The translations under genes were made by a program, and so were the position numbers. Under the pieces are notes generated by a model, which was not told the origin of the DNA, made no database searches, and saw nothing but the letters and a program-made list of their open reading frames with translations. 32,175 nt of DNA from Methanobacteriaceae archaeon 41_258 (lineage in GTDB: Archaea; Methanobacteriota; Methanobacteria; Methanobacteriales; DSM-23052): contig LGEU01000002.1 in assembly GCA_001507955.1 (NCBI GenBank), forward strand, positions 1-32,175, given 5' to 3'. Numbering within the stretch: position 1 is the stretch's first letter; every line of letters begins with the position of its first letter. Shown here one piece after another: positions 23,616-26,182 of the stretch.

Positions 23616-23996
23616 GTGACTTTCAAGATAGTAATCTCCGATAAGGAAAAAAGCATACAAATGGAAGCTGACCCTTCACAGGAGAGAAAACTCATAGGAC
23701 TCGCGATAGGTGACGAATTTGAAGGTTCAATAATAGGACTGAAAGGTTACAAATTAAAAATAACCGGTGGGAGCGACAAGGACGGTTTCCCTATGAGAAA
23801 AGATATACCAGGTCCTAGGCGGGTTAGAAGCCTAGTATCAGCCGGTCCAGGTTACAGGCCGAAGCGTAAAGGTGAAAGAAGACGTAAAACCTTGAGGGGT
23901 AATGTAATATCCGAGGATATTGTGCAAATAAACACTGTAATAACCAAGAGGGGTGATAAGCCCCTTGAAGAACTTATAAGTGCCGAGGAAGAATAA
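23616..23996 (+). CDS. rps6e: Ribosomal protein S6e
   Basis: This 126-residue small-subunit protein shows the archaeal S6e pattern: [13 protein letters not shown], the central [13 protein letters not shown], and the basic [18 protein letters not shown]. The start is GTG 23616, with GGGAGGGAGATG in the leader. The 3' end overlaps any longer reading of the aIF2 gamma gene but not the start preferred here. It opens the second translation cluster. Confidence 0.95.
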
Positions 23997-24021
23997 AAAA
24001 GAACCTAATAGGTGCATCCTT

Positions 24022-25248
24022 GTGAAAAAACAATCCGAAATAAACATCGGCCTCGTGGGACACGTCGACCATGGGAAGACAACACTCACAAAGGCCCTGT
24101 CAGGGGTGTGGACAGACACCCATAGCGAAGAGACGAAAAGGGGAATATCCATCCGCTTAGGATATGCGGATATAACATTTAGGAAGTGTCCCAATTGCCC
24201 GCCACCCCAATCCTACACAACAAAGGAAAAATGTGAACATTGCGGTTCCAAGACGGAATTCTTAAGGAAAGTATCATTTGTAGACGCGCCAGGCCATGAA
24301 ACCCTCATGGCAACAATGTTATCCGGCGCCGCTATCATGGATGGTGCAATACTCGTGATAGCCGCCAACGAACCTTGTCCACAGCCGCAGACAAAAGAAC
24401 ATCTCATGGCCCTCGACGTCATAGGAGTTAAGGATGTTATCGTAGTCCAGAACAAGATAGACATAGTATCAAAAGAAAGAGCCCTAGAAAACTATAAGGA
24501 AATCAAAGAGTTCGTGAAGGGCACATGTGCGGCTGACGCCCCAATAATACCAGTATCAGCCCAACAGGGAGCTAACATCGACATATTAATCCAAGCAATA
24601 GAAGAAAACATTAAAACACCAAAAAGAGACCTTAAAAAACCGGCAAGGATGTATGTGGCCCGTTCTTTTGATATAAACAAGCCAGGAGCCACCCCAGACC
24701 AACTAAAGGGTGGAGTTATCGGAGGGTCGCTTATACAGGGCAAATTCCGGGTCGGGGACGAGATAGAGATAAAACCTGGCATACAACTCAAGAAGGATGG
24801 TAAAACATCATGGAACAGCCTCTATTCAGAGATTGTGGGATTAGTTGCGGGTGGAGAGCCAATGGAAGAAGTTGGACCAGGAGGCCTTGTAGGTGTGGGC
24901 ACCAAATTAGACCCATCACTTACAAAGGCAGATTCCCTCTCAGGTTCAGTAGTTGGTGAACCAGACACTCTGCCACCTGTCAGGCATAATCTCACTATCG
25001 AAACACATCTATTAGAGAGAATCGTTGGTACAGAAGAGGAGGCGAAGGTTGAACCTATAAGGACAAATGAACCCCTCATGATCAACGTGGGAACAACAAC
25101 CACTGTAGGTATTGTAACCTCTGCTAGGGAAAATGACGCTGATATCACATTGAAGTTACCAGCCTGTGCCGAGGATGGTCAAAGGATAGCACTATCAAGG
25201 CGGGTAGGTGCAAGATGGAGGCTGATAGGCTATGGTATCATCAAATAG
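24022..25248 (+). CDS. eif2g: Translation initiation factor aIF2 subunit gamma
   Basis: This 408-residue GTPase carries initiator Met-tRNA to the small subunit as the core of the aIF2 heterotrimer. Seen: GHVDHGKT (13-20), a zinc knuckle Cys56-x2-Cys59...Cys71-x2-Cys74 between switches, DAPGHE (88-93), NKID near 133-136, and the C-terminal barrels ending in [14 protein letters not shown] 24022 is chosen because AGGTG lies 7 nt upstream and the next residues match the usual N-terminus; an earlier GTG (23980) would add 14 residues and overlap S6e. The stop overlaps the start of the PIN gene by 17 nt. Confidence 0.96.
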
Positions 25249-25629
25249 GATCATCCTTGATACAAATTTTTTATGATACCATCCCAGTTCAGGGTTGATA
25301 TCATCTCTGAACTGGAAAGAATAGCGCCCAATGGCGAATTTATCATTCCATCATTCATAATAGACGAACTTGAAACGATTAAAAGAAAATCCAGGGGAAA
25401 GGACAAAATTGCCGCGCGTATAGCCCTCAGATTGGCGAAGGAGGGGCCGTTCAAGATAGTAAACTTCCCCTTGAAGGAGGGTGAAAGTGTGGATGACGCG
25501 CTTATACGCTTATCCGACATCCTCTGCACAAATGATAAAGAACTTAGAAAAAAAGCGCGCAAAAAAGGCGTGCCAGTCATTTACTTGCGACAAAAAAAAT
25601 ATCTAACCACCAACGGATACATATCATAA
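25232..25629 (+). CDS. Fcf1-like PIN-domain protein read through a -1 frameshift
   Basis: Two overlapping frames encode one PIN protein. From ATG 25232 (GGAGG 10 nt upstream) the first frame reads [14 protein letters not shown] and then hits TGA at 25274. A -1 shift on T TTT TTA (25267-25273) continues as [11 protein letters not shown] to TAA 25627-25629, about 132 residues in all. The joined NFL-MIPSQF is the sequence expected for archaeal Fcf1-like proteins. Acidic PIN residues lie in both frames: Asp of LDTN in the first, and [14 protein letters not shown] and CTNDKEL in the second. Fcf1-like nucleases are linked to rRNA maturation. Reinitiation at ATG 25273 (ATGA overlap) would make a protein lacking the first catalytic Asp. 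A one-base sequence error or mutation is the alternative. Confidence 0.8.
25267..25273 (+). other. Slippery heptamer T TTT TTA
   Basis: The heptamer is in the correct phase for X XXY YYZ -1 slippage relative to the upstream frame (AAT TTT TTA TGA). It is the same heptamer as the HIV-1 gag-pol site. The zero-frame stop follows immediately. A homopolymer of six T is also a common place for base-count errors. Confidence 0.55.
25284..25315 (+). promoter_or_regulatory. Stable hairpin downstream of the slippery heptamer
   Basis: CCAGTTCAG (25284-25292) pairs perfectly with CTGAACTGG (25307-25315), and the stem can extend inward by G-U, G-C, a U-U mismatch, U-A and G-C to an AUAU tetraloop. It begins 10 nt after the heptamer, slightly beyond the usual 5-9 nt spacer. 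It lies inside coding sequence (SQF...SELE), so part of the symmetry could be coincidental. Confidence 0.5.
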
Positions 25630-25651: not shown

Positions 25652-26182
25652 ATGAATCTCTGGAAGGATATTAAACCGGGACCTTCAATCCCCGAGGTCG
25701 TATATGCCATAATCGAAATACCAAAAGGTTCAAGAAACAAGTACGAATATGACAAGGACTTGGAAGCCTTTTCACTCGACAGGGTGTTATATTCACCATT
25801 CTTCTACCCTGCAGATTATGGTATAATACCACAGACATTATATGATGATGGGGACCCTATGGACATCCTTGTACTTATAGATGAGGCCACATTCCCTGGT
25901 TGCATCATAGAATCAAGGCCAATAGGACTGATGAAGATGATTGACAGCGGCGACCAAGACGATAAGATATTAGCAGTGCCTGTCAACGACCCCCACTATG
26001 AGGATGTGAATGATATCACAGATGTCCACCCACATATTCTAAAAGAGATAGCCCACTTCTTCAAGGAATACAAGAAACTTGAAGATAAAAACACTGAGAT
26101 AATCGGATGGGAAAACCGTCAAAAGGCATTAGATGCGGTTATCCACTCAGTGGAACTATACAAAGAAAAATACTTAAAATAG
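25652..26182 (+). CDS. ppa: Inorganic pyrophosphatase (class I)
   Basis: The 176-residue soluble enzyme hydrolyses pyrophosphate to drive biosynthetic reactions. Seen: [15 protein letters not shown] (22-36), [11 protein letters not shown] (52-62), [11 protein letters not shown] (65-75) with the metal-binding aspartates, and [10 protein letters not shown] (101-110). The length is typical for the hexameric prokaryotic type. ATG 25652 has GGGAGGG 7 nt upstream. It follows the PIN gene by 22 nt in the translation/transcription cluster. Confidence 0.97.

Follow-up and report, generated by a model that had tools for sequence, protein, structure and literature searches.

Within the window, by which we mean the whole 32,175-nucleotide stretch of Methanobacteriaceae archaeon 41_258 DNA analyzed here, a gene for a predicted Fcf1-like PIN nuclease lies between those for the translation initiation factor aIF2-gamma and inorganic pyrophosphatase, and its coding sequence is divided between two reading frames. 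The earlier note on this DNA had described the arrangement accurately: the LDTN motif is encoded in one frame (the 0 frame) and the remainder of the PIN domain in the -1 frame, an in-phase T TTT TTA heptamer at the junction adjoins a TGA, and a perfect 9-bp stem follows after a 10-nt spacer. The features, all on the plus strand, are as follows.

23980..25248 (+): aIF2-gamma, translation initiation factor, directly upstream; named from its sequence
25232..25276 (+): 0-frame N-terminal piece, 14-residue product; catalytic Asp codon at 25259-25261
25264..25270 (+): putative slippery heptamer A_AAT_TTT, in phase; found in 42 of 50 split genes
25267..25273 (+): putative slippery heptamer T_TTT_TTA, in phase; TTA-type genera only
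25274..25276 (+): 0-frame stop TGA, directly 3' of the slippery site; shares bases with the -1 frame ATG (25273-25275) as ATGA
25273..25629 (+): -1 frame ORF, the remainder of the PIN domain (MIPSQFRVD...GYIS*); alone covers PIN_9 positions 9-116
25284..25315 (+): downstream hairpin with perfect 9-bp arms (25284-25292 and 25307-25315), a probable stimulator; strong in the window's genus, not universal
25652..26182 (+): inorganic pyrophosphatase, directly downstream; named from its sequence

The junction reads GAT ACA AAT TTT TTA TGA, its T run occupying 25267-25272, and the first 17 nt of the 0-frame piece lie within the end of the aIF2-gamma gene. In a search of the window's own genome the PIN gene proved to be single copy, with no second intact version, and the junction pattern was found once; a plasmid-borne relative of the gene was also searched for, and none was found.

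Identity of the encoded protein

Taken alone, the -1 frame ORF matches the Pfam profile PIN_9 from profile position 9 onward (85 bits), and only upon joining the two pieces is the complete profile recovered (positions 1-116 of 116, 102 bits), along with a weaker Fcf1 match that is barely above cut-off. An NCBIfam search gave no match. The nearest solved relative of the fused protein is PDB 1o4w (E 2.9e-17), eukaryotic FCF1/Utp24 being weaker; the alignment extends over nearly the whole PIN domain and pairs the Asp of LDTN with the DTN-motif Asp of both 1o4w and FCF1, although the aligned chains, unlike the split gene here, are one-frame products. Among the single-frame members of our alignment A1, the D of DTN, E45, D87 and D101 are invariant, and both the Asp and the Asn of D-x-N are present in 50/50 split genes. 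By alignment, the LDTN aspartate is the predicted equivalent of D72 in human UTP24, in which the D72N mutation causes a marked drop in pre-rRNA cleavage at sites 1 and 2a (PMC4914098). Homology and operon context together suggest that the archaeal protein, too, may process rRNA. A gene model beginning at MIP... is left without the catalytic residue.

Conservation and history of the split

A match to the gene was found in 136 of 152 Methanobacteria genomes, a phylum-level search having given the same genomes as the class-level one, and the junction was read base by base in 121 of these. Fifty junctions are split and 71 are single-frame. The -1 break falls just after the catalytic D-x-N in 14 genera of three families (f1, f2 and f3), and so in the majority of genera of this methanogen order, and the split genomes include six single-contig ones (G002, G010, G011, G016, G019 and G032). 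The window genome belongs to f1. Within f2, G016 has an IF5B identical to PDB 1G7R over 300/300 residues; we take that structure to be from M. thermautotrophicus, and G016 would then be M. thermautotrophicus-like. Methanosphaera stadtmanae SIG25 (L061) is likewise split. Outside the class, seven homologs (Methanolinea, Woesearchaeota and Aenigmatarchaeota; L062-L068) are single-frame at the D-x-N site. Because the identical split recurs in 50 genomes, the one observed here is real and not a product of chance.

A tree built from the downstream PIN part together with the C-terminal part of aIF2-gamma (91 rows) requires at least seven changes of frame state. All deep lineages of the order contain the split, and single-frame genes are scattered on later branches (g3, g4, g6, g14, one of g10 and two of g5, in our numbering of genera). 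The simplest reading is that the split arose once, at the base of the Methanobacteriales, and that the single frame would then have been restored repeatedly. How many restorations took place is uncertain, because the tree was built quickly, its outgroup branches are long and several of its forks are left open. Some lineages, to judge by these restorations, can do without the split.

Two departures from these patterns may be recorded. At locus L136 (G098) the catalytic Asp codon is TAT (Tyr), with an in-frame TAA just upstream and a contig end nearby, and we regard this as a decayed copy or an assembly fault. At L119 (G060, same class, family f4; Methanothermus-like) the D-x-N site is single-frame and a break occurs ~75 nt further downstream at a T7 run (CCATTTTTTTGTTTTGG), where continuing needs a +1 change; as only one genome has it, error, slippage and other recoding are indistinguishable there.

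The slippery site and coding signatures

In 50/50 split genes the sequence AAT TTT T stands in the 0 frame (D-x-AAT-TTT-T), within a run of at least five T. The codon after AAT TTT is TTA (then TGA), TCA (then TGA), TGA or TAA, so that a 0-frame stop is at most one codon away in every one of them. The base 5' of AAT is A in 42 genes and C in the other eight, all from g2, where T_TTT_TTA remains. The earlier note had given the slip site as T_TTT_TTA, which is indeed in phase, and had not mentioned the A_AAT_TTT heptamer that overlaps it; the site is better written AAU_UUU_U: the U_UUU_UUA heptamer is confined to TTA-type genera, and A_AAU_UUU is the commoner form.

Codon usage was estimated from 20-32 kb samples. 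In the window's genus (g1) TTC is commoner than TTT (TTT 0.37; AAT 0.52), and in g2 AAC and TTC each outnumber their synonyms (AAT 0.32; TTT 0.27); single-frame genes include AAC TTT, AAT TTC and AAC TTC, several lineages having shifted to AAC or TTC. Set against this usage, the invariance of AAT TTT T in the split genes indicates that the slippery bases are probably selected beyond coding need, with the caveat that their retention alone is not decisive, because single-frame g4 genes keep AAT TTT as well (51/51). Nor did NFL, which the earlier note had expected as the intact form, turn out to be typical, since single-frame homologs in the order mostly have NFFM; its argument that an added T would give NFF is consequently no bar to transcriptional slippage, and only in TTA-type species does the choice between NFL and NFF at the junction carry information.

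The coding character of the short upstream piece was assessed in 26 representative split genes, using the six codons that precede AAT TTT. Diversity summed by codon position is 2.40, 0.89 and 3.12 for positions 1, 2 and 3, the 0 frame has no stop where the other two have 24 and 10, and the Asp is present in 26/26. Single-base codon differences within genera amount to 267 synonymous and 80 nonsynonymous (pairwise sums over five genera, which are not independent). Read in the 0 frame, the upstream piece shows the evolution of a protein-coding sequence, and both pieces are under purifying selection. Two conserved coding frames in a -1 relation are thus seen to overlap at the slip site.

Some genera carry further features at the junction. 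In g8, g11 and g19 (L013, L014, L016 and L108) a Shine-Dalgarno-like AAGGAGG or GGAGGT lies ~14 nt before AAT TTT, at a spacing that recalls the dnaX stimulator; none was seen in the other split genera. In g5, the Methanosphaera type (L039, L050, L052-L058 and L110-L117), the -1 frame opens with an ATG run (TTTTTGATGATGATG), so that several 0-frame stops follow in succession right after the slip site.

The downstream hairpin

The hairpin in the window folds as RNA at -19.5 kcal/mol; its z is -3.15 relative to dinucleotide shuffles and -4.1 relative to synonymous-codon shuffles. With the latter, the stretch next to the slip site carries excess structure in the split genera, which have a mean z of -1.9 at offset 9 and of ~0 from offset 21 on, compared with a mean z of -0.4 just after the slip site in the single-frame genera. 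Strong structure, with z of roughly -3 to -4, is found in g1, g8, g9, g11 and g19; it is weak in g2 (the Methanothermobacter type) and g12, and moderate in others; in the structure comparison g5 has no hairpin. Its position recurs, and the pairing register shifts between genera (g9 and g18); because the stem arms shift in this way, we claim no column covariation. Part of the hairpin also follows from the conserved protein motif QF...EL. An Rfam search returned only a sub-threshold antisense Trp-leader match, which we judge to be chance.

A universal determinant it is not, as similar stems occur in single-frame g4 and none occur in the Methanosphaera-type genes. We treat it as a lineage-dependent stimulator and not as a defining part of the signal. 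Of what the earlier note had singled out, then, the split is well conserved among relatives (50 of 121 junctions), T_TTT_TTA belongs to one class of genera, and the hairpin, strong here and in several genera, may serve as an element of the putative recoding signal in some lineages only.

Expression of the split gene

Taking the comparative evidence together, we consider programmed -1 ribosomal frameshifting on AAU_UUU_U to be the highly probable mode of expression of the PIN gene. The central proposal of the earlier note is in this sense strongly supported, with its slip heptamer, its NFL product and the standing of its hairpin revised. Translation would begin at 25232, within the 3' end of the aIF2-gamma gene, and proceed as far as ...LDT-AAU-UUU. 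On (A)AAU_UUU_U the tRNAs would then slip back by one base, a step promoted by the 0-frame stop close by and, in many of the genera, by a hairpin ~10 nt downstream. Reading would then go on in the -1 frame (MIPSQF...) to give an Fcf1-like PIN nuclease of ~132 residues that includes the catalytic Asp, and ribosomes that fail to slip would terminate immediately, leaving a peptide of 14 residues. Since the 0-frame product is a short peptide only, shifting would be needed for active enzyme. The frame split, its conservation, coding in both frames, the retained slippery bases and the completion of the domain on fusion are observed; that the slippage is translational is probable, and a role in setting the dose of the nuclease, as the earlier note proposed, is a conjecture.

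A fused protein might also be obtained by transcriptional slippage, in which RNA polymerase would add one U at the T5-T6 run, rendering part of the mRNA single-frame and yielding NFFMIP (NFLM in the Methanosphaera type). Every split site holds its run of at least five T, and the NFFM often found in single-frame relatives is just what an added U would produce in TTA-type species. Against this, the run is only T5 in g5, g7 and g17, which is short for polymerase slippage; the adjacent Asn is fixed as AAT and usually preceded by A, as fits tandem tRNA slippage on A_AAU_UUU; and the hairpin sits downstream, as in ribosomal frameshifting. We regard slippage by the polymerase as improbable. An equally small likelihood attaches to expression with no fusion at all, whereby the mini-ORF would end at TGA and translation resume from the ATG that overlaps this stop, so that a PIN protein beginning MIP..., dead as a nuclease, would be made along with a short peptide that may associate with it. 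The ATGA overlap in most split genes is the classic restart arrangement, and each of the 26 split genes sampled retains the Met, though this Met is ancestral, single-frame relatives and outgroups having it too. Restart leaves the fixation of AAT TTT T unexplained, and it sits poorly with an active-site Asp and Asn that are retained throughout, with an upstream piece that evolves as PIN strand 1, and with the fused protein made by single-frame relatives and outgroups.

A sequencing error, or a gene decayed in one assembly, could be suspected, because the break involves one base, lies at a homopolymer, where errors usually fall, and comes from a genome assembled into 169 contigs. The identical break in 50 genomes, single-contig ones included, refutes error or a lone pseudogene, and purifying selection on both pieces speaks against decay; we assign this explanation practically no likelihood.

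Relation to known recoding systems

According to a 2021 review, the α-L-fucosidase gene fucA1, in strains of Saccharolobus (Sulfolobus) solfataricus, was the sole archaeal cellular gene for which a programmed -1 frameshift had been reported (PMC8211752). The two genes are alike in being archaeal cellular genes with a -1 split at a homopolymer heptamer, a putative stem-loop and one-frame relatives. The fucA1 shift differs in that it uses an A_AAA_AAT site, is restricted to S. solfataricus strains, has a 40-nt overlap and was demonstrated experimentally (PMC8211752), whereas the PIN-gene site is U-rich, order-wide, placed at the catalytic Asp and known from sequence comparison. Other archaeal -1 cases have been proposed for magnesium chelatase in Methanocaldococcus and Methanococcus and for some haloarchaeal viruses (PMC8211752, PMC5009743, PMC3711429). 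The magnesium chelatase genes (Pseudomonas, Methanocaldococcus and Methanococcus) resemble ours in showing a conserved -1 split in archaeal genes (PMC3711429, PMC5009743), and they differ in site (A_AAA_AAR), in gene, and in that short and long products are both thought useful. Our literature search found no prior report of a frameshift in the PIN gene, although an unnamed entry in the supplementary tables of a 2013 frame-transition survey is possible (PMC3711429).

Genome comparison strongly supports reading the PIN-gene split as programmed -1 frameshifting that would be unusual for the domain of life, the type of gene and the depth of its conservation. It represents an order-wide and ancient candidate for recoding in a predicted housekeeping nuclease, for which natural single-frame revertants provide built-in controls, and it offers archaeal translation research a conserved, testable site, M. 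thermautotrophicus included. One may also ask what leads a cell to retain a broken frame in a gene of this kind.

The release factor RF2 (prfB) of bacteria is encoded with a +1 frameshift stimulated by an upstream Shine-Dalgarno element; this frameshift is ancient and has been lost repeatedly. The PIN gene is similar in its very short 0-frame ORF and in the stop adjoining the slip, such that the shift would be required for any active protein, and it differs from RF2 in the direction of the shift, in the stimulator and in a product that is not the release factor itself. By analogy, the PIN-gene frameshift might act as a sensor: slippage at UUU would rise with immature or error-prone ribosomes, with incomplete modification of tRNA-Phe at position 37 or with slow release at the stop, more of the predicted ribosome-maturation nuclease would be made, and this feedback loop would account for the survival of the split from the base of the Methanobacteriales onward. 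We advance this as speculation that is unlikely to be right.

UUU is an interesting slip codon in view of the report that -1 shifting is prevented when tRNA-Phe carries a wyosine-type modification (PMC7761594). Among 60 genomes related to that of the window, Taw1 (PF08608), which acts in wyosine base formation, is present in 58 and TYW3/Taw3 (PF02676) in 0, whatever the frame state; the presence of these enzymes does not track the split, and the tRNA-Phe wyosine hypothesis fails in that form. The occurrence of Taw1 without TYW3/Taw3 in these relatives suggests, as an observation apart, that the order lacks part of the series of tRNA-Phe wyosine derivatives.
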